The translations under genes and the position numbers were made by a program. Shown piece by piece: positions 6,168 through 24,303 of a stretch of 24,303 nt of DNA. A model generated the notes under the pieces. The model worked only from the letters and a program-made list of their open reading frames with translations, ran no database searches and was not told the DNA's origin. Origin of the DNA: a virus; IMG/VR virus record IMGVR_UViG_3300042326_001767, positions 1 to 24,303 of that record, one strand, 5' to 3'. How positions within the stretch are numbered: position 1 is the first letter of the stretch; each line of letters opens with the position of its first letter.

Positions 6168-6177
6168 CAATAGTTAT

Positions 6178-6240: not shown

Positions 6241-6253
6241 AGAATACTAGTGT

Positions 6254-6655
6254 ATGAAATATTTTTGCTCAGTATGTGGGAAGACGACTCAGTATAATTT
6301 TGAATTACCAAAATTTTGTGCGTTTTGTGGCCAAGCTTTTGCTAATAAACCCGCATCGTTAGATGCTGAAAATCAACGGCTTAAATTTTTAAATGAATTA
6401 AAATTAAAGAAAAATATAAACTCTAGCGATGACGAAGACTCGGAAAGTATCGAAAAAAATATAAATTACAAAAAAATTAAGCCATCTTTTAAAATAAATA
6501 TGTACCAATCAAAAGGAGAATCTTTAGGTAGTTTAATTGAGAACCCTTCCGCTCCTGTCGAGATCAATAATGGAAATAATGTTATACCTAAAAAAACTAA
6601 AGAAGAAGTTTTGGCAGAATTTCAAAAAGAGGCTGGATCCTTAAGATCTGAATAA
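6254..6655 (+). CDS. Small zinc-ribbon protein
   Basis: A 133-aa protein whose N-terminus holds two CxxC knuckles: C5-x2-C8 and C22-x2-C25 (FCSVCGK and FCAFCGQ), a zinc-ribbon arrangement. The rest is low-complexity, Lys/Asp/Ser-rich and probably disordered, ending in a short charged helix (TKEEVLAEFQKEAGS). Zinc ribbons of this form usually bind nucleic acid or mediate protein contacts in transcription. As the first gene of a unit with the sigma-like gene 6 bp downstream, a transcription-related role is plausible but unproven. No Shine-Dalgarno site is visible. Confidence 0.65.
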   Translation: MKYFCSVCGKTTQYNFELPKFCAFCGQAFANKPASLDAENQRLKFLNELKLKKNINSSDDEDSESIEKNINYKKIKPSFKINMYQSKGESLGSLIENPSAPVEINNGNNVIPKKTKEEVLAEFQKEAGSLRSE

Positions 6656-8496: not shown

Positions 8497-9432
8497 ATGA
8501 ATAAGAACAAAATATACTTAAAATGTAAAGTTTGTGGTGAAGAATTTAATTATTTTGCCGAACTTCAAAAACATTTAAGATATTACCATAAGCTTTCCTG
8601 TAAAACTTATTTTGAAACTTATTGGAAACGTATTGATCGTTTTAATGGGACAAAATTAGAATATAAATCTTTTGACCAATACATTACTTGCGATTTTGTT
8701 GATAAAAAAAACTATAAAAACTGGTTAAAGACTCTTTCCAAAGAAGAGTGTGCGGATTATTTTAAAAGTAAGTTAGAGCAATATTGTGATTTAAAAACTC
8801 TTGATATGGCGCCCAGTCAGGTAGAGTGTCAAAGTATTAATTGTTTATTACCTATTAGTACAATGGAAGCTTTGTCTGGAATCTGTTACAATGATTTATG
8901 TAAAAAAATTGGATTGCATTCCAGATTTAATTATCAAATTCCTGATGAAATTCCTTTCACTCCTATTCCACAAATTATTGTAGATAGTCGTGAACAAAAA
9001 CCATTTCATTTTGAAGAGCATACTTTAATTGAATCTAAATTAGAATATGGCGATTATTCTCTTCACCCTAACAATAAATTAGCAGTAGAGAGAAAAAGTT
9101 TATCTGATTTATATGGAACTTTGAGTGGTGGCCGCGAAAGATTTGAACGCGAAATTCAAAAGGCTAAAAAAATGGAAGGTTATATTGTCGTAGTCGTAGA
9201 ATCGACTCTCAATAATACGATGTATCAAAAACAAAAATTTGGTAAAGCTTCTGGTGAATTTATTGCTCATAACATGAGAAAATTATTACGTCAATATGAT
9301 AATTTACAATTTGTTTTTTGTGATGGGCGCGAAGAAGCGAGAAATAAAACACTTCATATTTTAGGTATGAATGAAGAGGCCTGTAAAATAGATTTACAAT
9401 ATTACTTTGATACAAAATGGCACTCATCGTAG
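8497..9432 (+). CDS. ERCC4-type nuclease with N-terminal C2H2 zinc finger
   Basis: A 311-aa protein. Residues 10-31 form a C2H2 finger (C10-x2-C13-x12-H26-x4-H31). The C-terminal domain from about 158 is an ERCC4/XPF-Mus81-type nuclease: IIVDSREQKPF (D163, R165, E166), LEYGDYS (GDY 185-187), AVERKSLSDLYGTL (E198, R199, K200) and GRERFEREI. These match the GDxnERKx3D core that coordinates the catalytic metal. Family members cut branched or flap DNA. The gene overlaps the large terminase by 16 bp, so it may debranch replicating concatemers before packaging, the job of endonuclease VII in T4; that is inference. The middle region (60-150) is unassigned. Confidence 0.85.
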   Translation: MNKNKIYLKCKVCGEEFNYFAELQKHLRYYHKLSCKTYFETYWKRIDRFNGTKLEYKSFDQYITCDFVDKKNYKNWLKTLSKEECADYFKSKLEQYCDLKTLDMAPSQVECQSINCLLPISTMEALSGICYNDLCKKIGLHSRFNYQIPDEIPFTPIPQIIVDSREQKPFHFEEHTLIESKLEYGDYSLHPNNKLAVERKSLSDLYGTLSGGRERFEREIQKAKKMEGYIVVVVESTLNNTMYQKQKFGKASGEFIAHNMRKLLRQYDNLQFVFCDGREEARNKTLHILGMNEEACKIDLQYYFDTKWHSS

Positions 9433-11321
9433 GAAATCAAAAAAAATCTAAACCATTAGCTAACGTTAATAAAGAGTTACTGAATTTAAAGGGCGATTTA
9501 ACTGACGAAGAAGCACGGGTTAGTCTTGCTAAATTTTTAAGATATAATCTTGGTTTTACTACGGAATTATCAATGGGCTTAACATTAGAAGCCTATCAAG
9601 AATTAACTCTTAATTCTTTTTTTAATAGAAATTATTGTATGTTAGTTTGGGGGCGTGGTGGCGCTAAAAGTTTTTGCGCTGCGATCTATTGTATTCTTAA
9701 ATGCATGTTAGAGCCTGGAACTAAAATACTTATTGCATCTATTAACTTTCGTACTAGTCGTCGTGTTTTTAATGAAATTGAAAAATTTTTAATGTCTCCA
9801 GGCGCAGCACTAGCGCGACAATGCTTTGGTTTAAAAAGTAAGAGAAATGACCAATACGAATGGCAAATTAATGGCGGTAGTATCACAGCTATCCCACTAA
9901 CTGGTGAAAAAATTCGTGGTATCCGTGCTAACGTACTTATATTGGATGAGTTTTTACTTTTACCCCCAGATATTATTGACAATGTTCTTATTCCATTCTT
10001 GAGTTCGCCAAGAGATGTAGGCGAGCGTATTCGTATTAGAAAACTAGAAGAAGAGTTAATAAAAAAAGGTTTATTGCATCCAGATAATAAACATGTGTTT
10101 GAGAACACGTCCCAAATGTTATGTTTAAGTTCTGCTAGTTATACTTTTGAACATTTATTTCGTGTGTATCAACAGTGGTCAAATTTAGTAGAACATCCAG
10201 ATGAGCAAGAGTCTAAAGAGGGCGAGCTGCCTGGGACATATTTTATTTCCCAATTAAGTTATGAAGCGTTACCTCAGCACATGGTCGATCAAGGCGCGAT
10301 CCAAGTTGCTAAAAGTGGTGGGAGTTCACACCATTCGTTTTTACGGGAATATTGTGCCCGTTTTATTGATGGTGGGGATAGTTATTTCTCACCTAAAAAA
10401 ATGCATGAATGTACTATATTAGATGGTGAATATCCAACTACAAAAGTAATTGGAGATAGTGATAAAAAATATGTTTTAGCAATTGACCCTAACTTTTCGT
10501 CTTCTAAAGTTGCCGACTATTTTGCCATGAGCGTGATTGAGCTAGATGAAGAAAAAAAACAAGGCGTATTAGTTCATGGATATCAAGCCGCAGGGTCATC
10601 GTTGCAAGATCATATAAAATATTTTTACTATTTATTTAAAAACTTTAATATTGCGTTAATTGTTATTGACCATGCTGGTGCAGATACATTTATAGATGCT
10701 GTTAATAATTCTCAATATTTTAAAGACATAAATCGTAAAATTGGGTTTGTAGATTTTGATTCTGATAAAGAGAATGAGGATTATACAAAAATGTTAAAAG
10801 ATTGTGCTCGTCAATACAATAAAGATTTTGGTAATATATGTATTAAACAATATTTTACAAGCTTCTTCTTGGGTCGGGCAAATTCTTATTTACAAACCTG
10901 TATAGATCATAAAAAAATATGGTTTGCCTCGCGCGCGAGCAATCACCCAGATATTTTAGAAAATATCTTTACAATGAATCTTCCAATGGAATATATTTAC
11001 CCAAGAGGCATCGGGGATAAAGCAGATAATGAATATGAGACCAAAAAATTAACTGTTAGAGAATTTATTGAACAGCAAGATTTTATTGTTCAGGATACCA
11101 AAGATCAGTGTGCCAATGTAGAGGTTACAACAACATCTAGGGGTACCCAAAGTTTTGACTTACCGTCTCATTTGAGAAAATCAACCAGTATTAATAGAGC
11201 TAGAAAAGATAACTATACTACTCTTATGTTGGGAAATTGGGGCGTAAAAGCTTATTTTGATATAATGGCTCCAGAAAATTTTGCAAAGAAAAATACAGAG
11301 TTCGTTGCAGAATTAATCTAA
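9417..11321 (+). CDS. terL: Terminase large subunit
   Basis: A 634-aa packaging motor. The ATPase domain has a Walker A variant WGRGGAKS (78-85), Walker B VLILDEF (173-179) with catalytic E178, and a likely coupling motif LSSAS near 237-241. The RNase H-like headful nuclease domain follows: VLAIDPNF (D357), IVIDHAGAD (D418, D423) and a later acidic segment DFDSDKENED (447-456). The length is normal for large terminases. It translocates DNA through the portal and cuts concatemers. The start lies inside the nuclease gene, with no Shine-Dalgarno site, suggesting translational coupling. The ATP-binding loop is a glycine-rich, Lys-containing variant as in many phage terminases, so activity is expected. 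Confidence 0.95.
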   Translation: MALIVGNQKKSKPLANVNKELLNLKGDLTDEEARVSLAKFLRYNLGFTTELSMGLTLEAYQELTLNSFFNRNYCMLVWGRGGAKSFCAAIYCILKCMLEPGTKILIASINFRTSRRVFNEIEKFLMSPGAALARQCFGLKSKRNDQYEWQINGGSITAIPLTGEKIRGIRANVLILDEFLLLPPDIIDNVLIPFLSSPRDVGERIRIRKLEEELIKKGLLHPDNKHVFENTSQMLCLSSASYTFEHLFRVYQQWSNLVEHPDEQESKEGELPGTYFISQLSYEALPQHMVDQGAIQVAKSGGSSHHSFLREYCARFIDGGDSYFSPKKMHECTILDGEYPTTKVIGDSDKKYVLAIDPNFSSSKVADYFAMSVIELDEEKKQGVLVHGYQAAGSSLQDHIKYFYYLFKNFNIALIVIDHAGADTFIDAVNNSQYFKDINRKIGFVDFDSDKENEDYTKMLKDCARQYNKDFGNICIKQYFTSFFLGRANSYLQTCIDHKKIWFASRASNHPDILENIFTMNLPMEYIYPRGIGDKADNEYETKKLTVREFIEQQDFIVQDTKDQCANVEVTTTSRGTQSFDLPSHLRKSTSINRARKDNYTTLMLGNWGVKAYFDIMAPENFAKKNTEFVAELI

Positions 11322-11338
11322 TAAAATATCAGATTTTA
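11322..11338 (+). terminator. Short AT-only hairpin after the terminase gene
   Basis: TAAAAT (11322-11327) and ATTTTA (11333-11338) are perfect 6-bp arms around ATCAG, directly after the terminase stop and directly before GTGTAA. It is weak alone and listed because the same layout recurs at other unit boundaries. Confidence 0.22.
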
Positions 11339-11358
11339 GTGTAATAAACTGTTATAAT
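11337..11358 (+). promoter_or_regulatory. GTGTAA-type promoter signal for the portal unit
   Basis: TAGTGTAA (core 11339-11344) lies 25 nt before the portal ATG, with a TATAAT (11353-11358) between them, 5 nt from the start codon. No TTGACA-like hexamer sits 17 nt upstream of that TATAAT, so a plain sigma70 promoter is not a good reading. Confidence 0.5.
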
Positions 11359-11363
11359 AATTT

Positions 11364-13268
11364 ATGGCACGAAATAGTAATAAAAATATTAAATTCCCAG
11401 AGCCACAGGTAATTGAAGGATCTATTAAGTCTAATGAGACTATAGAAATCAAAGCAAGCCGTGGAGAAGTGAATACCTCCGTAAGAAGGAATAGGTCATC
11501 AACTATTTCTAGAACTGATAAATATAAAAATATCGAAGGTGGAGTTATTCCTTTTATTTACGGCGGAGGTTATGGAAAGTATACTTCTAATATTAGTATA
11601 AAAGATACTATTATCTTATGCCAAAAAGCTTATTATAATTTTTCTATTTTTAGGAATACGATTGATTTAATGACTGAATTTAGTTGTTCGCCTATTTATT
11701 TTACTGGTGGAAATGAACAATCCCGTAAATTTTTTCAAGCATGGGGTGACCGTGTAAATTTATGGAAATTACAAGATATGTTTTTCCGTGAATTTTTTCG
11801 TAGTGGTAATGTCTTTTTATATAAATTAAATGCTCAGTTTACTAAACAAGATATGCGCGTTCTTACTGATTTAATTACTACAGAAGCCCGTACGGGAGAA
11901 ATTCCCGTTAGATATATTATTTTAAATCCGGCTGATATTCAAGCTATCGGGTCAGCTTCATTTATTACTCCTCAATATATTAAAGTTTTAAATGATTTTG
12001 AAATGCAGGTTTTAACTAATCCGGATAATGAACAAGATAAAGAACTTGCTCAAAGAGTCAAGAATGTAAAAGATTTAAAAACTACTAGTAATATCACCCA
12101 ATCAAATCAATACATGGTATTTGAATTAGACCCCGAAAGATTTGTTCCAATTTTTTACAAAAAACAAGATTATGAACCGTTTAGCGTACCAATGGGTTTT
12201 CCAGTTCTCGAAGATATTAACTGGAAGCAAGAACTTAAAAACATGGATATGGCAATTAGTCGTACCATACAGCAAACAGTCCTTTTGGTTACAATGGGAA
12301 ATGATGAAGTCGGTATGCCAACCAAAGAACAAATCGCAACATTAAGAAAGATTTTCGAAAATGAAAGTGTGGGTCGTATTTTAGTTACCGATTATACAAC
12401 TAATATTAAATTTATTATACCAGAGATTAGTAATATTCTTGATCCTAAAAAATATGAGGTTGTAGATCGTGATATTCGTTATGGTTTAAATAACGTTCTT
12501 TTTGGCGAAGAAAAATATGCAAATACTAATACTAAAATAGAAGTATTCTTATCAAGATTAAAACATGCGAGAGAAACTTTCATGAATGAGTTTATTATAC
12601 CAGAAATGAAAAAAATTGGTAAAAATCTTGGTTTCAAAAATTTGCCAACCGCCCGTTTTAAAGATGCTGATTTTAAAAATGATATGAACTTAACGAGAAT
12701 TTATTCTCGCTTAATTGAGCTTGGGGTTCTTACTCCAGAAGAGGGGGTTACGGCCATTGAAACTGGTCGTTTACCACTTCCAGATGAAAGTATAGAATCA
12801 CAAAAAGATTTTAAAAAATTACAAGAAGAAGGGTTGTACCAACCTTTATTAAATAAAGGACAGCAACAAGAAACTGGTCGTCCTACCGGAACTGGAACGC
12901 CCCAAACAACAAAAGCTCCTAGAACAGCGCCAACAGCACAAGCTTCTGAAATTAAACCTAAAATAAATGCCGATCTTGTAGCTAAAAATTTGGTTAAATT
13001 TGATAATTTAGTTGAAGCTGTTGAGACAACTTTAAAAGAAAAGTATGATCGTAAAAGACTAACCAAAGAACAAAAAGAAATTATTCAAACAATAGCAGAA
13101 ACAATTGCTACAAATGAATTACCAAAAGATTGGGTTAATAAAATTAATGATTATATTAACAAACCAGTCGAATTAAATGTTAATATGGAAAAGATTAATG
13201 AAATTGCTGCTCAATATGGTTTGGATTATAAAACAGCAATTTTATTATATCATAGTAAATTAGAATAA
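11364..13268 (+). CDS. Portal protein
   Basis: A 634-aa portal vertex protein, placed directly after the large terminase. The N-terminal 55 residues are polar and probably flexible. The core starts around [14 protein letters not shown] (60-73), followed by helices typical of portals and the family-like segment [14 protein letters not shown] (141-154). [10 protein letters not shown] precedes it, and a stretch near 380-430 is likely the clip/stem region. After about residue 495 comes a Gln/Thr/Pro/Ala-rich linker (to about 530), then a helical C-terminal extension ending in a three-helix bundle-like segment ([20 protein letters not shown]). The extension may face the capsid interior or contact scaffold. 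The dodecameric ring and terminase docking are family knowledge. It starts a new GTGTAA unit. Confidence 0.88.
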
Positions 13269-13269
13269 T

Positions 13270-14901
13270 ATGAGTAGAAGTTTAATTAGAAAAAATCAAT
13301 TACATCCAGATATAGGAGATTTAGTAACTGGATATGGAAGTTCTATATTTGTAAAATCTGGAGATTTTAACACACTTTCTCAGTCATTATCCGGTATTGT
13401 TGAGTTTAATAAATCAATTACAGTTCTTATTACTGGTGATCAAAATATTAATGGTTTAAAAAATTTTTCTAACAGAATAACAATTAATAATAGTGGCGTT
13501 GTTCTACAAGGAGAGATTTTGCCTGGAACTGTATATGTAACAGGAGATCAAACTATTAGTGGTTTAAAAAATTTTATAACAAGACCTACTGTTAATGGAA
13601 GCGGAGTTTTTCTTCGAGGAGAATATCCAATAAATGCATATTTATTGATTACAGGATCGGGTGATTTGTCAGCTGGTTTAAAATATGTAATTGATACTAG
13701 TGCCAATAGTTATACTGTTAACCTTCCTTTGGTTCCTTTAACTGGAGATAGTATATCAATACTTGATTATAATAATACTTTTGATATTAATTCTTTAATT
13801 ATTAATAAGCAAAATTCTAAAATTGAGGGATATGACGAAAATTTATTATGCAATGTGAAAGGGTCTTCTTTTGATTTGGTTTATATTAATAATATAAAAG
13901 GGTGGGAAATTATACCTCAATATGCCGTTGTTTCCGCTCCTATTCAAATAATTTCTAGTCCTGGAGCTACAGGCCCTTCTGGCCCATCTGGCAGTCCTGG
14001 TGGTGCTACCGGTGCAACTGGTCCAGCGGGTAATGGCGCGACTGGCGCAACTGGTAGTGGCGCAACTGGAGCAACTGGCGCAACTGGCGCAACTGGCGCA
14101 ACTGGCGCAACTGGCGCAACTGGCGCAACTGGCGCAACTGGCGCAACTGGTAGTGGCGCAACTGGAGCAACTGGAGCAACTGGAGCAACTGGCGCAACTG
14201 GCGCAACTGGAGCAACTGGCGCAACTGGTAGTGGCGCAACTGGAGCTACTGGCACTACCGGTGCGACTGGAGCTACTGGTGCTACTGGCGCAACAGGACC
14301 ACAGGGTACCCCAGGAGGCGCAACTGGCGCAACTGGTATTTTATCTATAGTAGATCAGGAGAAATTAAATAGTATCCAATCTAACGCCTCTCGTAGAAAT
14401 GTATTTTCAGTAGATTTATGCAGAAATATTAATATCTTATACGGTGATAGTAATTATAGTCCTGGAAATCCATCTAATGGATTTTTTCCATTAGGAACTT
14501 ATTTTGGCAATACTGCGTATGGTATGGCAGATTCGCTATTATTTAGTAGTAATCGTTATTTTTGGTTTAATTCTGAGATTTACTTAAACCAAAGAGTACT
14601 TTTCGCCTACTATAAAATTACTATGATAGTAAGAGTAAATGGAGCTTTTAATGACGGTGTTCATTGCAGATTATGGCGTAGGGAATCTAATGGTACACAA
14701 TCAATAGTTCCTGGGCTACAGGATTTTGGTGGTGGTAGTGCTGGTACGGATAGACGATATGTAGCTACTTCTGACCCATTACCAATTGATGGTAATTTTT
14801 ATAGTTTTAGACCAGAATTTGCTGCATATAATGCACTTCCTGGCGGTGGAGGAAATGGAGCTACAATACAAGATGTTAGTTTATTAATATATATGGAATA
14901 A
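13270..14901 (+). CDS. Collagen-like fibre protein with TGDQ/GLKNF repeats
   Basis: A 543-aa fibre. Residues 1-50 may attach to the virion. Two 30-residue modules follow (53-82 and 89-118), each reading TGDQ-xI-xGLKNF...N-SGV-L-GE. A beta-rich domain (122-228) precedes a collagen-like stalk (about 232-356) of nearly pure GAT triplets with GSG interruptions. A C-terminal globular domain (360-543) is rich in Tyr, Asn and Gly and contains [11 protein letters not shown] and [12 protein letters not shown], with the look of a receptor-binding or trimerising tip. The modules recur in the proteins at 15396 and 17207. The start is 1 bp after the portal stop with no Shine-Dalgarno site. The role as a host-recognition fibre is inferred from composition. 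Confidence 0.8.
13426..13623 (+). repeat. Two copies of the TGDQ...GLKNF...GSGV fibre module
   Basis: Copy 1 (13426-13515) and copy 2 (13534-13623) each encode about 30 residues sharing TGDQ, GLKNF, an Asn-rich turn, SGV and GE. Related copies lie in the genes at 15396 (residues 18-46, 107-137, 146-176 and a degenerate one at 302-326), and half a module opens the gene at 17207. Confidence 0.8.
13963..14337 (+). repeat. Collagen-like repeat with eight perfect 9-bp GGCGCAACT units
   Basis: About 125 residues of Gly-X-Y are encoded by 9-bp repeats. Between 14077 and 14148 there are eight consecutive perfect copies of GGCGCAACT, flanked by GGAGCAACT variants. Each unit is in frame, so gain or loss by replication slippage changes stalk length without a frameshift. 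GC content here is far above the flanking fibre DNA. Pro/Val/Ala and Gln/Leu frames on either strand are shadows. Confidence 0.92.
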
Positions 14902-14902
14902 T

Positions 14903-15346
14903 ATGAATATACAAGACCTTAACCAATTAATTCCAAACGAGTACAGAACTTTAAATGTTCCAGAAACATTTATGTACTATCGCTCTGGAGAAGTATTTCC
15001 AATCACTGGTGAATATATATCTCAAAATGATGATTTTATATTTAAATATATAAAAAATAATGGTGTTATGAATATAGAACAAATAAAGTCTTCTGGCCTT
15101 CCAAATGCCATCTATACATCAGAAGAATGGGTTCAAAAATATTTTACGAATTTAGAAGTTTTAGCGTTAATGAGATTAGAGCAAAATATTATATTACAAA
15201 ATAAAAATTTAGGACCAAAAATGCAATCTTCAAAGCAATGGTTAGAAAATATGTTATTTGCAGCTCCTTCTAATAATTTTAATCCAGCGCCGTATTCATA
15301 TGCCGAAATAAGTCAAGAGGCCGAACAAACTCTTTTCCAATCTTGA
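14903..15346 (+). CDS. Hypothetical protein (147 aa) following the collagen-like fibre
   Basis: A 147-aa soluble protein of mixed helix and strand starting MNIQDLNQLIPNEYRTLNVP. An N-terminal half with PITGEYISQNDDFIFKYIK is followed by a helical segment (SEEWVQKYFTNLEVLALMRLEQNI) and a disordered tail. There is no recognised motif, signal peptide or membrane span. It starts 1 bp after the fibre stop, in the GGAATAATATG context, and is the last gene of the portal unit. A role as a fibre connector or fibre-associated protein is a guess from position. Confidence 0.6.
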   Translation: MNIQDLNQLIPNEYRTLNVPETFMYYRSGEVFPITGEYISQNDDFIFKYIKNNGVMNIEQIKSSGLPNAIYTSEEWVQKYFTNLEVLALMRLEQNIILQNKNLGPKMQSSKQWLENMLFAAPSNNFNPAPYSYAEISQEAEQTLFQS

Positions 15347-15348
15347 TT

Positions 15349-15371
15349 TATTAAATTCCTTATATTTAATA
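15349..15371 (+). terminator. AT-only hairpin ending the portal unit
   Basis: TATTAAAT (15349-15356) and ATTTAATA (15364-15371) are perfect 8-bp arms around a 7-nt loop, just after the 147-aa gene and 4 nt before the next GTGTAA. No T-run follows, so intrinsic termination would be weak. Confidence 0.3.
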
Positions 15372-15373
15372 CT

Positions 15374-15390
15374 ACGTGTAAATTATAATT
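15374..15390 (+). promoter_or_regulatory. GTGTAA-type promoter signal for the fibre unit
   Basis: ACGTGTAAAT (core 15376-15381) lies 20 nt before the ATG at 15396, with TATAAT-like sequence 2 nt after the core. There is no Shine-Dalgarno site before the start codon. Confidence 0.45.
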
Positions 15391-15395
15391 AATAT

Positions 15396-17084
15396 ATGCT
15401 TAATTTATCACAGTTTTATCCAGTTAATATTGCAACGGGATTATTTGTATATACAGTTAATAATCAAACAATTAACGGTATTAAAACTTTTAATGAAAGA
15501 ATTATCAGTCCTGAAATAAGAGGGAGCGGTATAGCCGGAGTAAATAAAAAAATTGATTTACAAGCTGGGCAATTATATTCTGGCCCAGTAACAGTTTCTT
15601 TAGATTATTGGAACCGAATTCTTTCAGGAGATTGGGCTTTTGAGCGCAAACCAAATATAAATGGTTCTGGAATAGTATTAAGCGATGAGTTATCTTTATT
15701 CCCAAATTCTATTGTATATACAACTGGAAATCAAACAGTTAATGGTTTTAAAAATTTTACATCCAAACCTACCATTAACAATTCTCAACCGGTTTTATTC
15801 AGTGAAATATCATTATTTTCAAATATAATTGTTTATAAAACTGGGGACCAAGATATTAATGGTCTTAAAAATTTTAATATAAGACCGACGGTTAATAATA
15901 CTAATGTATTTTTAAATGGAGACTCGTATGCAAATGTTAATATTTTATCGTTAAATACTGGCTTACCATTTTTCATACAACCCGCCCGTAAAACTTTTTA
16001 CGAAATAAATTCATTAGATACGAATGGGGTTGTAAATGTTTATTTACCAAGTGGGACAAATTGTTTAGAAGGCGATGAATTAAATTTAACATTTAGTAGC
16101 TTGGGTTGTAAATATAATATTTATCATTTGGATCAAATTAACCCAATTGTTCCTACTGGTATATATTTATTTAAAACAATAGAAAGCGGATTAAGTAAAA
16201 AAGGTCTTAATTTATATCACCAAGGCCCAAATGGAAGAAGATGGACACCTGTTCCGATATTAAATGAAATATATAATTTTATTGATGATAAAAATTGTGT
16301 ATTTACGACTGGAAATCAAAATATTGTTGGAATAAAAACATTTAATGATGTTAATATAAACAAAATTAATGGTAATACAAGTTTTGGTATTTATAATTAT
16401 GAATTTCCAATATATTACTCGGACTCTTCCATCGCGCAGGAAAAATATTTATTAACTGGCTCAAATCCTGTTACGGGTATCCGAAACGGAGATATAGTAA
16501 ATTTTTATTTTGAAAAAGATGTTTATTTTAATCCACAATATGTTCCGACGAGATCTAGAACTTTAAAAGTCAACCCTGGAATTTTAATTAATGTTAATCC
16601 ATCGGACCCTAGTATAAGTGGTTCTCGTAATTTAATTAAATTTAAAAACAATACTCCTTATTCTGGAAAAGCTATAAGAAAAATAAGGTATAATTCTACG
16701 ATTGGAAATGGTTATAAATCTTTTTTTCTATTACCAGAATCTTTTTATAGTAATAACTCTCCAATATTGAGACCTAAAACTAGAAATCTAGAAACTTTTT
16801 ATGATATTTTTGTTCCATCTGGTTCTGGTGTTCAAACTCCGGATGTTAGATTTATTAGATTTCGTACTCCGAGTAGTTTTCCTTTTGTTCAAGGAACTTG
16901 TTTAAATTTACGTTTTACTTTTCAGGCAGATAGTAGTCCATGTATAGTTAGTGGAATAGCATATGGATCAAATACTCCTATATTTACAATATCTGGAGCA
17001 AACTATGATTTTATTCAAAAAGAGCGTGTAATAATAATTAGTAAAGGAGGTGATGGATCAATTCCAGAATTTAAGCATTGGTAA
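15396..17084 (+). CDS. Fibre/appendage protein with repeated TGNQ...G-KNF modules
   Basis: A 562-aa protein, mostly beta-rich and low in charge. It carries three clear modules (residues 18-46, 107-137, 146-176) of the same type as in the gene at 13270 (VYTTGNQTVNGFKNF, YKTGDQDINGLKNF) and a degenerate fourth (302-326, TTGNQNIVGIKTF). Between and after them lie unassigned beta domains, with RPRTRNLETFYDIFVPSGS-like strands near the C-terminus. It lacks a collagen stalk. A structural fibre or baseplate appendage made of tandem modules is the best reading. It is the first gene of a unit that continues through the three next large genes. Confidence 0.7.
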   Translation: MLNLSQFYPVNIATGLFVYTVNNQTINGIKTFNERIISPEIRGSGIAGVNKKIDLQAGQLYSGPVTVSLDYWNRILSGDWAFERKPNINGSGIVLSDELSLFPNSIVYTTGNQTVNGFKNFTSKPTINNSQPVLFSEISLFSNIIVYKTGDQDINGLKNFNIRPTVNNTNVFLNGDSYANVNILSLNTGLPFFIQPARKTFYEINSLDTNGVVNVYLPSGTNCLEGDELNLTFSSLGCKYNIYHLDQINPIVPTGIYLFKTIESGLSKKGLNLYHQGPNGRRWTPVPILNEIYNFIDDKNCVFTTGNQNIVGIKTFNDVNINKINGNTSFGIYNYEFPIYYSDSSIAQEKYLLTGSNPVTGIRNGDIVNFYFEKDVYFNPQYVPTRSRTLKVNPGILINVNPSDPSISGSRNLIKFKNNTPYSGKAIRKIRYNSTIGNGYKSFFLLPESFYSNNSPILRPKTRNLETFYDIFVPSGSGVQTPDVRFIRFRTPSSFPFVQGTCLNLRFTFQADSSPCIVSGIAYGSNTPIFTISGANYDFIQKERVIIISKGGDGSIPEFKHW

Positions 17085-17094
17085 ATATATTAAT

Positions 17095-17187
17095 ATGAGC
17101 AACTTGAACAAAGAGGCCTATGCGCTAGCCCTAAGAAGGTACAGCACGAGGACAACCCGTAGAAATACGTTAGGTTGCCCATGTTAG
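17095..17187 (+). CDS. Possible 30-aa small ORF in a GC-richer island
   Basis: An ATG in the same TAATATGAG context used by larger genes here opens a 30-codon frame ending TAG. The peptide starts MSNLNKEAYALALRRY and ends LGCPC; it has five Arg and two Cys near the C-terminus, and no match I recognise. Codons (CTA, GCC, AGG, ACG, TGC) differ from the TTA/AAT-heavy neighbours. It lies in the 122-bp gap between two fibre genes. The same bases fold as RNA (separate entry), so the coding reading may be incidental. Confidence 0.35.
   Translation: MSNLNKEAYALALRRYSTRTTRRNTLGCPC
17115..17179 (+). ncRNA. Putative structured RNA element (two hairpins, one GAAA tetraloop)
   Basis: Hairpin 1 pairs GGC(C)TA (17115-17120) with TAGCC (17126-17130) around TGCGC. 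Hairpin 2 pairs GG(A)CAACC (17150-17157) with GGTTGCC (17173-17179), then, across a 3-nt bulge (17170-17172), CGTA (17158-17161) with TACG (17166-17169), closed by a GAAA tetraloop (17162-17165). GC content is near half in a gap whose flanks are about 30 percent or lower. It matches no ribozyme, riboswitch or tRNA that I know. Confidence 0.35.
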
Positions 17188-17206
17188 TATATTTAATAAA
17201 AAAATT

Positions 17207-18166
17207 ATGTTAAATGAACGTTTACAAATAGGATATTTAGAAATTAAAAATAGACCAGTTGTTAATGGAACCGGTGTTTTATTACAGGGCGAGGCGTCTG
17301 CATCTTCAGTTATTTTTAATGGTAATAGACAAATTAGAAGAATACCATCTGTTTCAGATGCTCCTTATGGTGGGGGCACAGTATCTGAATTTTTAAATAA
17401 TATGTTTTTTCCATATACTCAATCAGTTTTAACTTTAAACAATTTTACAAATAAAACTTATGGTTATGATACAATAAACTCTGAAACATTTGCGGGAACT
17501 TTAGATGTAAAAGACGATAATGTAACTGGAATTGCATTTTTATTTTCTAATACTGTTTTAAGCGGATCAGCAACCCCATTAGTAACAAATAATAATTACT
17601 CAGTTTCACCTGTTAATTTCTTATTATCTCCACCAGTGCCGTCGAGTCGTCAAAGTACTAGCCCCCAATCTTTTATAACAAGAATATTTGGTATAAGAAG
17701 CGGAACGACTCAATTTACACAAGATTCTAATTCTGTAAGACTTCGTTTTGAACCACCTTACTTTTTTGGGGTATCATCAAATCCAAATTTAGGAGTTGAT
17801 GTTACAGGTTTAACTAGAGTTAATCCTTCTACGTATTTAAATATAAACGGCTCTAATTATAATGTCGGGTCTAGACCTTCTTTTATTAATGGGTTACAAT
17901 TTTCTGTTACTAACGGTTATATTTATTTTGCTTATCCAGATTTTCAGAATGTAGGAGAATCTCTCAATAATTGGGGTTTTCTAAATTCAACTAATGGTAT
18001 TCAGGATGCAAATAACTTTTTAGATTATAGTTCTACGTATACAAATTCAACTGTCAATATTAATTTTCCGACAAGATCAAATATGACTTATAGGATATAT
18101 AGATCACAATTATTAACGCCAATAATTCAACCTACAACCTTCACACTTAATTTTAAATTTACATAA
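17207..18166 (+). CDS. Fibre/appendage protein with one half-module
   Basis: A 319-aa beta-rich protein. The N-terminus LEIKNRPVVNGTGVLLQGE (residues 11-29) is the second half of the TGDQ...SGV-L-GE module shared with the two preceding large fibre genes; the rest of the module is missing, as if truncated. An Asn/Ser/Thr-rich body follows with GGGTVSEFLNNMFFPYTQ (about 57-74), an element often seen in phage proteins with immunoglobulin-like tail domains, and an IKFT-type terminal strand. No enzymatic motif is visible. It starts 19 bp after the small island and ends 12 bp before the next gene. A virion appendage role is inferred. Confidence 0.65.
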   Translation: MLNERLQIGYLEIKNRPVVNGTGVLLQGEASASSVIFNGNRQIRRIPSVSDAPYGGGTVSEFLNNMFFPYTQSVLTLNNFTNKTYGYDTINSETFAGTLDVKDDNVTGIAFLFSNTVLSGSATPLVTNNNYSVSPVNFLLSPPVPSSRQSTSPQSFITRIFGIRSGTTQFTQDSNSVRLRFEPPYFFGVSSNPNLGVDVTGLTRVNPSTYLNINGSNYNVGSRPSFINGLQFSVTNGYIYFAYPDFQNVGESLNNWGFLNSTNGIQDANNFLDYSSTYTNSTVNINFPTRSNMTYRIYRSQLLTPIIQPTTFTLNFKFT

Positions 18167-18178
18167 GGAAAATAATTT

Positions 18179-18685
18179 ATGGGAGTACCATTAGCAGGAG
18201 ATTTTGATGTAGCCGTAACAAAACCAATCGATAGTCGTATGGTTTGGACTGGAACTATATCTAATTTAAATAATATACCAAATAAATATCCAGGTTTATC
18301 ATGTTATGTAACTGGAGATAAAAATTTATATGTATTTCAAGGCGATGATACTTGGGAAAAAATTGTTACAAATAATGTTGACTATATAGAGTTTAATAAT
18401 GCTGGAAATTTTAATATAAATAATACATATAATGGAAATGTTATATATGTAAATAGCGCTCTAAATGTTACCGGTCTTATTACTGGAAATATACAAGATT
18501 ACCCAATTGGATATAATACTACGATTGTACAACAAGGTCTTGGTCGTATTACTATATCTGGGCAATTACCATTAGGAATAATAAATAGAGTAGGGTTTAA
18601 TCAGACCGCTGGACAATATGCAGTTGCATCTATATTAAGATTAAAAGATACTAGTCTTTTTATATTGTATGGAGATATTATATAA
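18179..18685 (+). CDS. Hypothetical fibre/baseplate-associated protein (168 aa)
   Basis: A 168-aa beta-rich protein. The start MGVPLAGDFDVAVTKPIDSR and GLSCYVTGDKNLYVFQGDDTWEKI resemble short N-terminal head domains in phage tail proteins, where a displayed parameter-like repeat precedes a globular part. The C-terminal half is Asn/Gly/Ile-rich (GYNTTIVQQGLGRITISG), fitting a beta sandwich or C1q-like tip. AAGGAA (18165-18170) lies 8 nt before the ATG, one of the few visible Shine-Dalgarno sites. The stop overlaps the next start by one base (TAATG), so the two are coupled. Confidence 0.6.
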   Translation: MGVPLAGDFDVAVTKPIDSRMVWTGTISNLNNIPNKYPGLSCYVTGDKNLYVFQGDDTWEKIVTNNVDYIEFNNAGNFNINNTYNGNVIYVNSALNVTGLITGNIQDYPIGYNTTIVQQGLGRITISGQLPLGIINRVGFNQTAGQYAVASILRLKDTSLFILYGDII

Positions 18686-20676
18686 TGTTTGGAAATTTTA
18701 CAGCAACAGCTGGTGTAGTTGCTAGTAATTTTGTTAACTCGCCAAATATCATTGAACCAACAATTAATTGGAATTTTAATGATGTTTTTATTCTAGATTT
18801 TAATCCACCTGGAGTTGAGAATATAAATGATAGACCCAGAATCAATTCTTGGAGAGATAATGACGGAATTCCAGATTTTAGATATTTACAATATTTATCT
18901 GGTGGTCAAATTATGTTATCCCCAGCTCCAGTTGGGACTTTAATACAACCATGGGGAAATAGAAAAACCGGATCTTATAAATTATCTAAATTATCAATCG
19001 GCGGAAATAGACTTGCGGGAATAGATTTATTTACTCATAATTTTGCGACCCCTATAAATTTAAATCCGCCAATACAAGAATGGTCAATAGATAATTCCCT
19101 AGCTTCGAGTGGCGAGTTAAAATATCAATATTTATTTAAAACTGGAAATAAATATCCAGTTATTGATATTGAAATAGATTATAAAAACAATTGTAAGCCG
19201 GTAACAATACCGACTTGTAATCCGGATACTCAATTATTATCTTATATTGGAACTGGTGCTCTAAATGGGTGTCCTATTTTTTCTTGTATAAATAAATCTG
19301 TTTTTACAACATCGCTTGAGGTTGGTGACGCGTATGATATCGATTGGATTGACGGGCCTGGGAAAGCGCTTTTTGGACGATGGTCTTTTAGTAGTGGATT
19401 TGGTACATTCAGAAATACGAGTAATTCTAATCAATTTGGAAGACAAAGTATCGGTAATGATGCGTTCTTTATTGTTGGGACTACGGGTTCTATATTATCA
19501 AGTCATATAGCGAATTTTGATTTAACCAAACAATTGAATACGGGGAGTTCTTTGTCATTCGATGTTAATTATGCATGGTATGGCGGAGTAAGAGAGGTTA
19601 TTTTTAGAGGTTACGGGGGTATAATACAAGAATTTGGATCTCCCCATCCAGACGCTATAAACAACACTAGATATCGTTTTTTTCATGGTGAAAATGATAA
19701 TTTAACTTTTTTTACTTCTGGAATCGCAGGTGTTCCAACTACCACTGGCACACATTTAATTACTGGAGGTTTGGGTGCCTATTTAAAAGCTTTTAATTAT
19801 AGATTAACTAATTTAGGAACTGGCATGGAAATGGTAGTTAGATCTACTGGTATTTCTGAACCATTATATATTAATCGTATTACTGGACTAAATATAGATT
19901 GGTCAAATTTTGTTACCGGTTTAACGTTTACTGCAAGGACTTTTCCGAATGTGTCTCCAGTAGACTGGTTTAATTATGGATTATATTTTAATAATATTAA
20001 ATATGAGACTGTTCCAGATCCGATTTCTCAAATATTTGTAACAAATCTAAGCTCTAATAGTTTTAAACTTAGTTGGAATAATATTAATAGTGCAACCGGG
20101 TACAGATTAGATATATCTACCGATTCAAATTTCACAAATTATATTGCTGGATATAATAATAAAACATTAAATGTAAATTTTGAGCTTGTTCAAAATGTAG
20201 CCAGTAGTACAAATTATTATACAAGAGTAAGAGCTGTTAACGAATTAGGCCAAAGCGTTACATCTCCGGTTTTAAATGTTAAAACAATTAGTAGCGATTC
20301 AATAATTCTTACAAGAAATTTTCCCGATATAGCTATCATGGGTGACGTACTAGGGTGTCAAAAATTAGAAATTTTTAATTATGTTAATACATCAAATGTA
20401 AACTTAGAATATTCTATTATAGGGGACGTAGATGACGAATTATTTATTAACAATGTTCTTTATGAGTCTGGTATGTATCCTTTTTTGGGATGGCCATCTC
20501 GAGTATGTAATTGCAGTTTTCCTATTAATGGTGCGCATTCAATAACCCCATATAATGGAACACTAGCGCCAGGACAATCCTTAAAACTAGAAACAATGAG
20601 TTATGATAATCCTGGAGGAGCAACTCTTTTACGTTATAATTTGCAAGTTATATTTTATATGCAAGTTATATTTTAG
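18685..20676 (+). CDS. Large appendage protein with fibronectin type III domain
   Basis: A 663-aa protein. Residues about 205-440 form a beta-rich region with lectin/jelly-roll character (WSFSSGFGTFRNTSN, SLSFDVNYAWYGGVREVIFRGYGG). Residues about 443-535 are a fibronectin type III domain: SFKLSWNNINSATGYRLDISTD and TNYYTRVRAVNELGQSVTSP show the W, the Y-x-V/L and the YxxRVRAVNxxG strand signatures. A further beta domain (540-650) has several cysteines (CQKLEIFNY, RVCNCSFP). FN3 domains are common in tail and adhesion proteins and can bind host glycans. The last six residues come from an 18-bp tandem duplication that moves the stop codon. It is translated by overlap with the upstream gene and ends the fibre unit. 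Confidence 0.72.
   Translation: MFGNFTATAGVVASNFVNSPNIIEPTINWNFNDVFILDFNPPGVENINDRPRINSWRDNDGIPDFRYLQYLSGGQIMLSPAPVGTLIQPWGNRKTGSYKLSKLSIGGNRLAGIDLFTHNFATPINLNPPIQEWSIDNSLASSGELKYQYLFKTGNKYPVIDIEIDYKNNCKPVTIPTCNPDTQLLSYIGTGALNGCPIFSCINKSVFTTSLEVGDAYDIDWIDGPGKALFGRWSFSSGFGTFRNTSNSNQFGRQSIGNDAFFIVGTTGSILSSHIANFDLTKQLNTGSSLSFDVNYAWYGGVREVIFRGYGGIIQEFGSPHPDAINNTRYRFFHGENDNLTFFTSGIAGVPTTTGTHLITGGLGAYLKAFNYRLTNLGTGMEMVVRSTGISEPLYINRITGLNIDWSNFVTGLTFTARTFPNVSPVDWFNYGLYFNNIKYETVPDPISQIFVTNLSSNSFKLSWNNINSATGYRLDISTDSNFTNYIAGYNNKTLNVNFELVQNVASSTNYYTRVRAVNELGQSVTSPVLNVKTISSDSIILTRNFPDIAIMGDVLGCQKLEIFNYVNTSNVNLEYSIIGDVDDELFINNVLYESGMYPFLGWPSRVCNCSFPINGAHSITPYNGTLAPGQSLKLETMSYDNPGGATLLRYNLQVIFYMQVIF
20641..20676 (+). 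repeat. 18-bp tandem duplication spanning the stop codon
   Basis: TTGCAAGTTATATTTTAT (20641-20658) and ATGCAAGTTATATTTTAG (20659-20676) differ only in first and last base. The unit-1 final codon TAT occupies the place of the TAG stop in unit 2. The C-terminus is thus LQVIFYMQVIF, extended by six residues. Confidence 0.85.
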
Positions 20677-20690
20677 AACTGATAATTAAA

Positions 20691-20710
20691 ATAAAATATA
20701 AATATTTTAT
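20691..20710 (+). terminator. AT-only palindrome ending the fibre unit
   Basis: ATAAAATAT (20691-20699) and ATATTTTAT (20702-20710) form 9-bp arms with a 2-nt centre, between the 663-aa gene and the lysis cassette. As RNA a loop of at least four bases would leave eight pairs. It is a weak terminator candidate or a protein-binding palindrome. Confidence 0.3.
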
Positions 20711-20721
20711 AATTTAAAAGT

Positions 20722-20735
20722 TAGTGTATATAAAT
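20722..20735 (+). promoter_or_regulatory. GTGTAT promoter-like signal before the lysis cassette
   Basis: TTAGTGTATATAAATA (core 20724-20729) lies 16 nt before the ATG at 20740. It is the GTGTAA signal with one change. It also contains TATAAATA, the T4 late promoter sequence, but that string is not present at the other sites and is likely fortuitous. Confidence 0.42.
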
Positions 20736-20739
20736 ATAT

Positions 20740-21009
20740 ATGAGATATTTATTAATATTCAGCATGTTCTTGACTGGATGTATATGTTTAAACCCAGATC
20801 ATAAAAAATCTGCACCGCCAATTGCTAATACTGGAGAAGTCATTAGCTCATTAGAAAAAACAAAAACTGAATTACAAAAAGCTGGCGAATCAAATACTGT
20901 AGTTGGTGAAAAAGTAGAAAAAGCTTTAACACTTGCCGAGCGTTTAGAAAAATTGTTGGAGCAGATAGACCAATCAGAATCAAAAATAATAAAGGAGCCA
21001 ATTAAATGA
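20740..21009 (+). CDS. Small lipoprotein of the lysis cassette (outer-spanin candidate)
   Basis: An 89-aa protein with a signal peptide ending in a lipobox FLTGC, placing the lipidated Cys at residue 14. The mature chain is short: a Pro-containing linker (NPDHKKSAPPIAN) and then a charged helix with heptad pattern (LEKTKTELQKAGES, VEKALTLAERLEKLLEQID) to the end. Outer-membrane lipoproteins of this size at the head of a lysis cassette are typical outer spanins, which fuse inner and outer membranes at lysis with an inner-membrane coiled-coil partner, here the next gene. The genes overlap by ATGA. The spanin role is inferred from architecture and position, as sequences of spanins are not conserved. 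Confidence 0.65.
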   Translation: MRYLLIFSMFLTGCICLNPDHKKSAPPIANTGEVISSLEKTKTELQKAGESNTVVGEKVEKALTLAERLEKLLEQIDQSESKIIKEPIK

Positions 21010-21518
21010 AAAAATTATTATTAATTATATTATTAGTTTTACCTGTTACGAGTTTTGGTCAATTTTGGAAACCAAAACCTAAAGCAACTCCAAAACCAAC
21101 TCCGGTTTTAGTAGAAAAATCAAAAACACCAATTCAAGATGCAAAACAAATTGTTAAAGAATTACAATCAGAATTAAAAATTGCAAAAAATGAAAACGCA
21201 AAGTTGAAGCAAAATTTAAATGAAGCTAATGTTAATGTTAAAAATGGATTTATACAAATCGAAAAATTAAATAAAGACATTACTACTTTAAAAGAATGGG
21301 GTATTGTTCAACAAGCAGAGGCTCAAAAATGGCTTGAAAAATATACAAATGCAATCAAACGATATCATCGTTTAAAATGGATTGCCGCAATTATTGCTGG
21401 TGCGGTTGGGGTACTTTTGGGCTTGCAAATTATGGGGTTTGTTCCGCCACCATATAACTTGTTAGTTCCAATTGGTGGTGCGGGATTATTTTCAACACTT
21501 GTTTGGGTGTTTTTATAA
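21006..21518 (+). CDS. Membrane-anchored coiled-coil protein (inner-spanin-like)
   Basis: A 170-aa protein. Residues 1-19 are a signal peptide or signal anchor (KKLLLIILLVLPVTSFGQ), 20-35 a Lys/Pro-rich linker, 42-115 a long coiled coil (QIVKELQSELKIAKNENAKLKQNLNEA). Residues 124-144 and 151-170 are two membrane segments separated by a Pro-rich turn (FVPPPY). The anchor is therefore at the C-terminus, opposite to the usual inner spanin, which is anchored at the N-terminus; the N-terminal hydrophobic segment may be either a cleaved signal or a second anchor. AAAGGAG (20991-20997) lies 8 nt before the ATG, a clear Shine-Dalgarno site. Function in lysis is inferred from neighbours. Confidence 0.6.
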   Translation: MKKLLLIILLVLPVTSFGQFWKPKPKATPKPTPVLVEKSKTPIQDAKQIVKELQSELKIAKNENAKLKQNLNEANVNVKNGFIQIEKLNKDITTLKEWGIVQQAEAQKWLEKYTNAIKRYHRLKWIAAIIAGAVGVLLGLQIMGFVPPPYNLLVPIGGAGLFSTLVWVFL

Positions 21519-21519
21519 T

Positions 21520-21999
21520 ATGTGGAATAATATTAAAAATATTGCAAGTAATGCTGCCGCATTTTTAAGTTCAAATAAAGTTCCACCTGGAACTCCTATT
21601 GAATTACAATCTTCATTACGAAATGAAAACCATTTTAAATCTAAAAAATTCTTTTTAGCATTTTCTTCATTTATTGGGTTATTGGCTTTTTATTTACTCT
21701 CGGTTTTTATATTATTTTTATTACCTACTAAGAATGAGCTTATCGCTGGATATGTTACAATTTTTACAAAGACGGTAGAAATTATTGCAATTATTGTAGC
21801 AAGTTATATTGGTGTTCAAGCGGCTGTTGATTTTAAATATGGAAGTTCTTCTAATGTAAATTTAGATTCTATTTTAACGTCCGAACAACGAGAAGAAAAA
21901 GTAATTGAAGAACAAACTATAGTTTATGCGAATAAATTTAAAGATGATCCTTCATATGCTCCAATTGAATGGGTATTTAGTTACGGAGATCAACAATGA
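21520..21999 (+). CDS. Two-helix membrane protein (holin candidate)
   Basis: A 159-aa protein starting at the ATG that begins 1 bp after the upstream stop. A longer in-frame start at 21472 would lie inside the previous gene and lacks support. Two hydrophobic segments (about 44-68 and 76-103) are joined by a short polar turn (PTKNEL). The N-terminal 40 residues are amphipathic and the C-terminus from 104 is charged and soluble (LTSEQREEKVIEEQ). Two spans of this size next to an endolysin fit a class II holin, which opens the inner membrane to time lysis. The 55-residue C-terminal tail is longer than usual. The stop overlaps the endolysin start by 4 bp. Confidence 0.55.
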   Translation: MWNNIKNIASNAAAFLSSNKVPPGTPIELQSSLRNENHFKSKKFFLAFSSFIGLLAFYLLSVFILFLLPTKNELIAGYVTIFTKTVEIIAIIVASYIGVQAAVDFKYGSSSNVNLDSILTSEQREEKVIEEQTIVYANKFKDDPSYAPIEWVFSYGDQQ

Positions 22000-22691
22000 A
22001 AGCATTAGAGCGTGGAGATGTTAATGAAGAAGTTAAACAATGGCAATTGTTTTTACAAAGTGCTGGTTATAAAATTCCAACAGTTGATGGAGCTTTTGGG
22101 CCACAAACAGAAAAAGAAACTATAAAATTTCAACTTAAAAATGGCTTAAAACCAGATGGAGTTGTTGGACCAAAAACTTGGAAATTCGTAACTAATATTT
22201 CTAACAACACTCCCTTATCGCAACGCTGGCCAAAACAAGATTATACATCAATGTGTAATTTTTATGGGCCGGTTGGGGAGAACATAACAAAACTTGAAGT
22301 CCCATATAAATTAAAATTAGCATGGGATCCTACAACAACATTAAATAAAATTTCTTGTAATGAAAAAGTAGCCAAATCTTTATATACAATTTTTGAAAAT
22401 ACATTAAAAATATATGGAGAAAAAGAAATAGTCAAATTAAGATTAGATATGTTTGGCGGTTGTGTTAATGTAAGACGAAAAAGAGGTGGGTCTTCTTGGT
22501 CTATTCATTCTTGGGGCGCAGCTGTGGATTTAGACCCTGATAACAATCAATTAAAAATGGGAAAAGATAGTGCTTCTTTTGCTAAGCCCATATATAACGA
22601 TTTTTGGAAAATTGTAGAAGCCGAAGGCTGGACAAGTTTAGGTCGTGCGAGAAATTTTGATTGGATGCATTTTCAAGCAGCTTATTTATAA
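21996..22691 (+). CDS. Endolysin: peptidoglycan-binding domain plus M15 (VanY-like) peptidase
   Basis: A 231-aa lysin. Residues 2-65 form a peptidoglycan-binding type 1 domain: RGDVNEEVKQWQLFLQSAGY, VDGAFGPQTEKETIKFQ and PDGVVGPKTW. The C-terminal domain (about 100-231) is an M15-type zinc peptidase: SIHSWGAAVDLD gives the H171-x6-D178 pair of the SxHxxGxAxD signature, and DWMHFQ gives D222 and the third ligand H225. M15 members cut peptide stem bonds of peptidoglycan. GGCVNVRRKRGG in the middle is a loop of the domain. No signal peptide, so export needs the holin. GGAG (21985-21988) lies 7 nt before the start. It is the last gene of the lysis cassette. Confidence 0.9.
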   Translation: MKALERGDVNEEVKQWQLFLQSAGYKIPTVDGAFGPQTEKETIKFQLKNGLKPDGVVGPKTWKFVTNISNNTPLSQRWPKQDYTSMCNFYGPVGENITKLEVPYKLKLAWDPTTTLNKISCNEKVAKSLYTIFENTLKIYGEKEIVKLRLDMFGGCVNVRRKRGGSSWSIHSWGAAVDLDPDNNQLKMGKDSASFAKPIYNDFWKIVEAEGWTSLGRARNFDWMHFQAAYL

Positions 22692-22702
22692 TAAATTATA
22701 AA
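22685..22702 (+). terminator. AT-only hairpin at the end of the lysis cassette
   Basis: TTTATAA (22685-22691) and TTATAAA (22696-22702) are perfect 7-bp arms around TAAA. The left arm includes the endolysin stop codon, and the GTGTAA of the next unit starts 7 nt after it. Weak by composition. Confidence 0.3.
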
Positions 22703-22706
22703 AATA

Positions 22707-22729
22707 AAGTGTAATAAATATAATATAAT
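22707..22729 (+). promoter_or_regulatory. GTGTAA-type promoter signal before the prohead protease
   Basis: AAGTGTAATAAATA (core 22709-22714) lies 21 nt before the ATG at 22730, followed by two TATAAT-like strings. The layout is the closest match to the portal promoter (AGTGTAATAAA in both). Confidence 0.5.
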
Positions 22730-24303
22730 ATGCCTACATATGAAGATGTTTCTGTAGAAATGGTCGATCCAAAAACAGGATTTGATTTATCTGATTTATC
22801 AATTTCATTTACTCGCCCAGTATCATTGTGCGCTTTTGAACTAAAAGAATCTAAAGATAAAGAAATTGTAATCGGCAATAAACTTAAAAATGTTGCCTTA
22901 TTAGCCGAAGAAAGTGTAAATTTACAAATGGATACAATGAAAGATTTCAAATATTCAATTAAATTTAATGGTATTATTGTTCAAGCGATGGTTCCTTTCG
23001 ATCAAGATAAATATTTAGCTGTGGCTTCGATTGATCAATTAAAACAATATCTTCCTAGTAATGTAGATCTTGATGTGAATCGTGACTTAATGGGTGTTGC
23101 TTTTGATGCTTTTGTTGTTAATCGCGGAAATAAAAATGGTCATATTATTAGTACGGATGTTGCGTTAGCAATGGTCGAAAATTTTATTAATAAGCCATTT
23201 AATATCGAACATAATCGTAAAATAGTTGTTGGTGTTTGTACCGGTTATGGATTTAGTGAATTTGGAAGTAGCAAGCCTTTAACTTTAGAAGAGGTTAAAG
23301 CTATGAAAGATCCTTTTAATGTAGTTCTTTCTGGATATGTATGGAAAATTGTAAATCCAGAATTCGCATCTGAACTTGTTGAAAGTAGTGATCCATCCTC
23401 TAATAAATATCTTTCTGTAAGCGCAAGCTGGGAACTTGGATTTAATGAATTTAACGTAGCTAAAGGAAATAAAAATTTAGCTGATGCAACCATTATAGAA
23501 AAAGAAGAAGATATTGTAGAATTAAAAGATCGTCTTAAAGTTTTTGGTGGAAATGGCTATACAGAAGATGGAGATATAGTTCTTTTAAATCTTCAGGGGA
23601 ATGTTCTTCCTTTAGGTATTGGTTTTACTAATACACCAGCTGCTGAAGTTAGTGGTGTTGTTATTTCTTATGATAAGCCACAAACAGAAGAAACTGTTAA
23701 AGCCGAAGAAGAGAAATATGTTTGTGCCAAATGTGGATACAAAGGTTCTGAAGCAGAAGTTTGTCCAAAATGTGGTAGTGAAGATTATGAAGAAATTGAA
23801 GAAGAAGATGATGAAGAAGAAAATGAAGTAGAGTCCTCTGAAATTAAAATGAATAAAAAAAGTGTCCATTCTGTAAATAATAATGTAAAAAATAATATGC
23901 AACTAAAAAATATTGATGATATTACGGACGATTCCATCAAAGAAGTTGCTGCTAGTGCTGTTCGTGAATTTATCTCGAACCGTATTGCAGAACTTGCTCA
24001 AGAATGGAAATCAAAAGTTGAAGAAAAAGAAACAGCACTTAAAGCTGCCGAAGATCAAATTTCAACATTGAAAACAGATCTTGAAGCAATCAAAGCTGAC
24101 AGTGAAAAAGTAAAAGAAGAATTCACAAAAATTCAAGAAGATCTTAAAGCCAAAGAAATTGAAGCCAATTTCCAACGTAGAATGGCCTTACTTGATGAAG
24201 AATTCGATCTCACTGATGAAGATCGTACTATCATCGCAGAAGATTTAAACGCCATTGAGAATGATGAACAATTCGAAAAATGGTACAAAAAGTTCTCTAC
24301 ATT
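22730..24303 (+). CDS. Prohead protease fused to zinc ribbon and coiled-coil scaffold (3' partial)
   Basis: The frame runs from ATG 22730 and is open to the window end, giving 524 residues with no stop. Residues about 115-245 look like a prohead maturation protease: PFNIEHNRKIVVGV carries a candidate catalytic His (161) and NKYLSVSASWELGF carries a candidate Ser (229 or 231), as in the His/Ser proteases of tailed phages. A zinc ribbon follows (C332-x2-C335-x9-C345-x2-C348), then a run of acidic residues (351-366), a Lys/Asn linker, and from about 400 a long coiled coil (AELAQEWKSKVEEKETALKA) typical of scaffolds. Protease plus internal scaffold in one chain would build and then digest the capsid core. 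The large fibre and lysis genes separate it from the portal. The protease call rests on motif pattern only. Confidence 0.65.
   Translation, partial: MPTYEDVSVEMVDPKTGFDLSDLSISFTRPVSLCAFELKESKDKEIVIGNKLKNVALLAEESVNLQMDTMKDFKYSIKFNGIIVQAMVPFDQDKYLAVASIDQLKQYLPSNVDLDVNRDLMGVAFDAFVVNRGNKNGHIISTDVALAMVENFINKPFNIEHNRKIVVGVCTGYGFSEFGSSKPLTLEEVKAMKDPFNVVLSGYVWKIVNPEFASELVESSDPSSNKYLSVSASWELGFNEFNVAKGNKNLADATIIEKEEDIVELKDRLKVFGGNGYTEDGDIVLLNLQGNVLPLGIGFTNTPAAEVSGVVISYDKPQTEETVKAEEEKYVCAKCGYKGSEAEVCPKCGSEDYEEIEEEDDEEENEVESSEIKMNKKSVHSVNNNVKNNMQLKNIDDITDDSIKEVAASAVREFISNRIAELAQEWKSKVEEKETALKAAEDQISTLKTDLEAIKADSEKVKEEFTKIQEDLKAKEIEANFQRRMALLDEEFDLTDEDRTIIAEDLNAIENDEQFEKWYKKFST

Follow-up and report, generated by a model that had tools for sequence, protein, structure and literature searches.

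Between two fibre genes of a viral contig a genuine structured RNA element was identified, in which the pairing rather than the letters is conserved and which had not been catalogued previously. The element resides in the window, i.e., the whole stretch of 24,303 nucleotides that was analysed, where two co-directional genes of the fibre cluster are separated by a gap of 122 bp (17085-17206). The features of this locus are as follows.

15396-17084, + strand: upstream tail-fibre/baseplate gene, 562 aa, matching Pfam BppL_N (3.2e-12) and a PHROGs tail protein, with the end ...FKHW-UAA
About 16452-17081, + strand: C-terminal domain of the 562-aa fibre gene, placed by domain alignment; marker of every element-bearing phage
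17082-17195, + strand: structured RNA element in full, UAA stop codon through 3' arm, resting on the MFE fold, shuffles and covariance models
17082-17107, + strand: 5' arm of the outer stem, with 16 bp (17082-17097), A17098 opposite C17179, and 9 bp (17099-17107)
17170-17195, + strand: 3' arm of the outer stem, made up of 17170-17178 and 17180-17195
17108-17169, + strand: variable branched core, 62 nt, 52% GC
17117-17151, + strand: core hairpin with an interrupted stem, predicted in the MFE structure, without covariation support in the window's own clade
17158-17169, + strand: core hairpin CGUA-GAAA-UACG of the MFE structure, the tetraloop of which is not kept in relatives
17095-17187, + strand: 30-codon ORF MSNLNKEAYALALRRYSTRTTRRNTLGCPC, judged to be no gene
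17207-18166, + strand: downstream fibre-cluster gene, 319 aa, starting 11 nt 3' of the stem

AlphaFold modelling of the fibre C-terminal domain gave a weak, beta-rich model (mean pLDDT 54; 57-80 across the last 80 residues), for which no significant PDB matches were found. The same cluster holds a fibre gene with collagen-like repeats (window 13270-14901), and beside the structural cluster a glycosyltransferase gene (window 1353-2468, PHROG 3408 match with E 4.9e-195) and a small minus-strand Hsp20-like gene (window 4342-4749) were identified.

Attention had been drawn to this gap by an earlier note, which described a GC-richer patch at 17095-17187. The patch is present, possessing 48.4% GC as compared to 31.7% window-wide; however, since an equally high GC content is found in 2.8% of the 93-mers of the structural region (9400-24303), composition alone is weak evidence. 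The limits given for the element lie in a real structure, the true extent of which is 17082-17195, whereby the patch corresponds to the branched core region. In the MFE fold, 17082-17107 pair with 17170-17195, yielding an outer stem of 25 bp with one A.C mismatch, which includes both the stop codon of the upstream gene and the ATG of the 30-codon ORF and leaves 11 nt up to the ATG of the next gene. Both hairpins named in the earlier note are predicted, but the 25-bp stem that encloses them had been overlooked; likewise the GAAA hairpin (CGTA-GAAA-TACG in the DNA) exists but is not the key feature, its loop being unconserved and the long outer stem conserved. The stretch from stop codon to ATG folds with an MFE of -36.6 kcal/mol (z -6.1), a value as low as this being reached by none of 1000 dinucleotide shuffles, and the bare gap alone gave z -4.25 (0 of 200 shuffles). 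For the nine readable family members, all nine gave z values from -5.2 to -8.4 (0 of 1000 shuffles each). The fold of the element exceeds chance, and the structure extends on both sides beyond 17095-17187.

A close relative, IMGVR_UViG_3300042475_003616, was found via the flanking proteins and is 98.4-98.8% identical over 13-19 kb. Across the 322 bp surrounding the element only two bases distinguish this relative from the window, both of which locate inside the stem, and each change keeps or restores a pair: A17098 is G in the relative, by which the A.C mismatch becomes G-C, and C17178 is T, by which G-C becomes G.U. Reading the two changes as one compensatory pair was rejected, as they affect adjacent pairs, each on one side. 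A terminase search gave 80 loci, among which the fibre C-terminal domain was found, besides the nearest relative, in L079 only, a locus from the contig of L090 with a perfect stem at the same place and a different core. Searching IMG/VR for the domain itself yielded ten contigs in total, with 40-60% identity outside the nearest relative, which fall into five groups, window included (window/L085; L086=L087=L088; L089/L090; L091/L094; L092/L093). All ten domain-bearing contigs possess a stem of 14-26 bp directly 3' of the stop codon, and their cores are nearly unrelated in sequence. Recent import, as offered earlier to explain the codon choice, is not supported in view of this distribution, the element occupying one and the same position in ten contigs from five diverged clades and always lying beside the same fibre domain. 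A domain scan with the version of the most distant clade gave no further contigs, the exact core pattern retrieved the nearest relative only from IMG/VR, and the fibre C-terminal domain was absent from 20 related records searched for it. Among 50,697 phage records, DNA similarity of the gap and its flanks returned only AT-rich chance matches and tblastn of the fibre domain returned none; a genome collection contained neither a relative nor the fibre domain, and by terminase the closest isolates show only about 23-35% identity. Because the element immediately adjoins the domain, the tie between the two may be plain co-inheritance.

The geometry of the junction is steady across the family. In nine of nine members the distance between the beginning of the stem and the first base of the stop codon is 0-8 nt, and 8-21 nt separate its end from the ATG of the next gene. 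The element measures 109-121 nt, and the total gap amounts to 115-130 nt in every phage measured, as compared to mostly -4 to 63 nt for the other neighbouring-gene gaps in the clusters. A stem with three hairpins is the best or a near-best shape for each of the nine (within 0-2.7 kcal/mol), and the relatives' cores, unrelated in sequence as they are, are able to form two to three hairpins. Taking about two helical turns, i.e., at least 20 bp of double-stranded RNA, as the length criterion for an RNase III site, the enclosing stem reaches 22-26 bp in the window and in L085, L089, L090, L092 and L093, but in L086 and L091 it branches after only 14-16 bp.

Covariation in homologous gaps, proposed as a check in the earlier note, was found. 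Fifteen outer-stem pairs were aligned in six distinct arm sequences, whereby 97.8% of the cells pair and 8 of 15 pairs changed on both sides, a count reached by none of 500 shuffles and falling to 0-2 in slid registers; these significance figures come from five groups with six distinct arm sequences and ignore relatedness, and the arm register is the choice of MAFFT, which gives a lower yet clear covariation count as compared to the first register. RNAalifold, run on a plain MAFFT alignment, returned the same 18-bp stem, with two-sided change in 19 of 26 predicted pairs. Together with the fold statistics, the covariation bears out the expectation that RNA structure constrains the bases. Between the sisters L092 and L093 three pairs changed on both sides, two of the three in the core, and between L091 and L094 substitutions within one core helix preserve its pairing. 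Wobbles recur in the outer stem, with G.U at pair 2 and U.G at pair 7 each in four of six arm sequences. Such compensatory changes amid near-complete sequence replacement indicate that the junction is under selection as structure.

A covariance model was built from all nine members and gives the window element 74 bits, the window being included in the model. It yielded one match per element-bearing contig searched, plus antisense echoes at the same places, with nothing elsewhere among 1.37 Mb of loci and no match in 45 further related records. Because this model includes the window, a second one was built without the window's clade, for which the window element, found at its true position with 21.6 bits (E 0.021), is the only match in 70.7 kb; once filters are switched off, the element of the nearest relative scores 25.2 bits. 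A strict inverted-repeat scan, used in place of a permissive one that mostly returned coding-region noise, found the element as a single copy per contig examined. The element is without a match in Rfam 15, and the covariance model is ready for further searches.

In eight of nine members the better fold is that of the sense strand rather than of the antisense strand, and the outer stem contains 10 G.U cells versus 1 A.C cell, as would be expected of a sense transcript that folds. The Rfam search of the gap suggested earlier gave no family above the gathering threshold in the window or six relatives, relaxing E adding chance-level matches only, and ARAGORN reported no tRNA in the window and none at the element in relatives. 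A + strand terminator was not found at the element: the 3' arm is followed by AUAAAAAAAUU or AGGAG and by no U-tract, hence it is not an intrinsic terminator. Neither a promoter above chance expectation at the element nor, among the members, a conserved unpaired segment usable as seed or active site was detected.

Considering this, it is tentatively suggested that the element is a cis-acting structured RNA of the polycistronic fibre mRNA, serving as an RNase III-type processing or stability site which separates two fibre messages. A processing site between the fibre genes had been among the proposals of the earlier note and still is the likeliest reading, as double-strand-specific processing sites have just this appearance, with a long stem and an exchangeable cap between phage genes of the same direction. 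On transcription, the stop-codon region of the upstream gene would pair with the sequence just 5' of the downstream ribosome-binding region, giving a double-stranded stem of 14-26 bp capped by a branched core of nearly free sequence. This stem may then serve as a double-strand-specific (RNase III-type) site by which the fibre message is cut or insulated, whereby the upstream mRNA would be left with a protected 3' end and the downstream mRNA with a free start region, and the two neighbouring fibre proteins could be produced in different amounts. Fibre proteins determine the host to which a phage binds, and the proportions in which they are made are of importance to assembly. The core would need compactness only, which would account for its free sequence drift. 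Cleavage by RNase III is established for RNAs of lambda, T7 and T3 (PMC5371410). As no RNase III gene was detectable in the phages searched, a host enzyme would be needed.

With the RNase III stems of phage polycistronic mRNAs (T7, T3, lambda sib/int) the element shares a long stem between co-directional genes, directly 3' of a gene, the lack of a U-tract and the conservation of pairing rather than sequence, whereas its tie to one fibre domain sets it apart from them. The usual T7 RNase III sites are single irregular hairpins; here, where cleavage is putative, a nearly perfect stem closes a branched core of roughly 60-75 nt. A nearly perfect stem would moreover be cut on both strands, unlike the single-cut T7 sites, which counts against the processing reading, as does the fact that a simple processing stem has no obvious need for a branched core of steady length or for a strict link to one domain. 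Precursor-rRNA processing stems likewise consist of a long stem enclosing a folded body, but the body of the element is about 60-75 nt long, unconserved in sequence and located between fibre genes. REP-like or 3'-UTR mRNA-stabilising hairpins resemble it in being placed directly 3' of a stop codon within a gene cluster, but the element occurs as a single copy per contig examined and is not dispersed as REP-like repeats are. It is conceivable, albeit doubtful, that the element represents a novel class of phage RNA acting in cis, stem-closed and four-way-junction-like, placed at the stop codon, with a freely drifting core, co-inherited with one fibre tip domain and controlling fibre dosage or co-translational assembly.

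Other explanations have to be weighed against processing. A phage or host protein, e.g., the fibre protein or an assembly factor, might bind the stem-capped RNA and thereby regulate fibre translation or co-translational assembly, an idea to which the strict tie to one fibre C-terminal domain (ten of ten contigs), the wobbles kept at pairs 2 and 7 and the shape shared by all nine members would be well suited; it is nonetheless considered unlikely, given that only the outer stem is conserved, cores and loops are not, and the domain tie is explicable as co-inheritance of neighbouring sequence. Translational coupling, in which the fold takes out the spacer of 115-130 nt and brings the stop near the next start, such that terminating ribosomes re-initiate as at the tight junctions of the cluster, appears less probable again. 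The position of the stem between stop codon and ATG is consistent with it in all nine members, most other junctions in the clusters amount to only a few nt, and both the bypassing of a gap (T4 gene 60) and re-initiation within polycistronic mRNAs are known (PMC11194080). Like the T4 gene 60 bypassing element, the present one is a structured non-coding gap in a phage mRNA, yet it separates two genes and interrupts none, and conserved take-off or landing codons matching that system were not seen. A ribosome on the stop codon would furthermore melt the base of the stem, and coupling leaves unexplained why a long insert was retained rather than lost.

An independent small RNA that is set free from the fibre transcript and acts in trans would agree with the length of 109-121 nt, the stable fold and an enclosing stem like those by which rRNA precursors are processed, but it is improbable in view of the missing conserved unpaired seed or active-site segment, the missing Rfam match and the missing promoter above chance. 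More improbable still is a function at the DNA level, be it as recombination site, cruciform, attC-like site or DGR hairpin, by which the fibre tip would be swapped or diversified. The location directly 3' of the fibre tip domain fits such a role, as does the fact that attC sites and DGR hairpins sit at gene ends and attC caps are variable, and with these hairpins the element has in common an imperfect palindrome with a variable cap near a gene end. However, neither tyrosine recombinase (PF00589) nor reverse transcriptase (PF00078) was found in any of 14 contigs, including those of 170 kb and 132 kb, though contigs may be incomplete, and this argues against a DGR or attC-like role; G.U is preferred to A.C on the sense strand, where the pairing is favoured, the element is present as a single copy, and no core sequence is shared that could recombine. 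The least probable explanation is a small protein gene. The 30-codon ORF does exist as an open reading frame at 17095-17187 and is intact in the window and its nearest relative, with one synonymous and one non-synonymous change, but both changes are compatible with RNA pairing as well, and among the first 83 loci no peptide matching the 30-aa ORF was found outside the nearest relative. The longest ORFs in the elements range from 7 to 30 codons (7-26 in the elements other than those two) and show no relationship from one group to another, and their reading frames are interrupted by 1-nt indels that distinguish sister elements, hence the family does not share the 30-aa peptide, and the small Arg-rich peptide gene considered earlier is not supported.

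Some further observations were made on the window and the fetched loci. A leader of some 95 nt, located at window 6161-6258, ends with AATACTAGTGTATGAA just 5' of a gene at 6254. This 16-mer is found exactly in 22 fetched loci (e.g., L008 5830, L018 5836 and L049 5826) and the leader ending with it is able to fold on itself (L008, z -4.3); it is probably a promoter or leader that is conserved 5' of the packaging cluster. Repeated palindromes of the type AAGTnnTTGATnnTCAAnnACTT occur in L113 (4095, 5463, 6792 and 10756), L123 (17826) and L132 (1625), and similar palindromes were seen in L124 (2877-3012) and L044 (636-837). The element-bearing 170-kb contig IMGVR_UViG_3300042695_002264 (L113-L116) carries 21 tRNA genes of many specificities.
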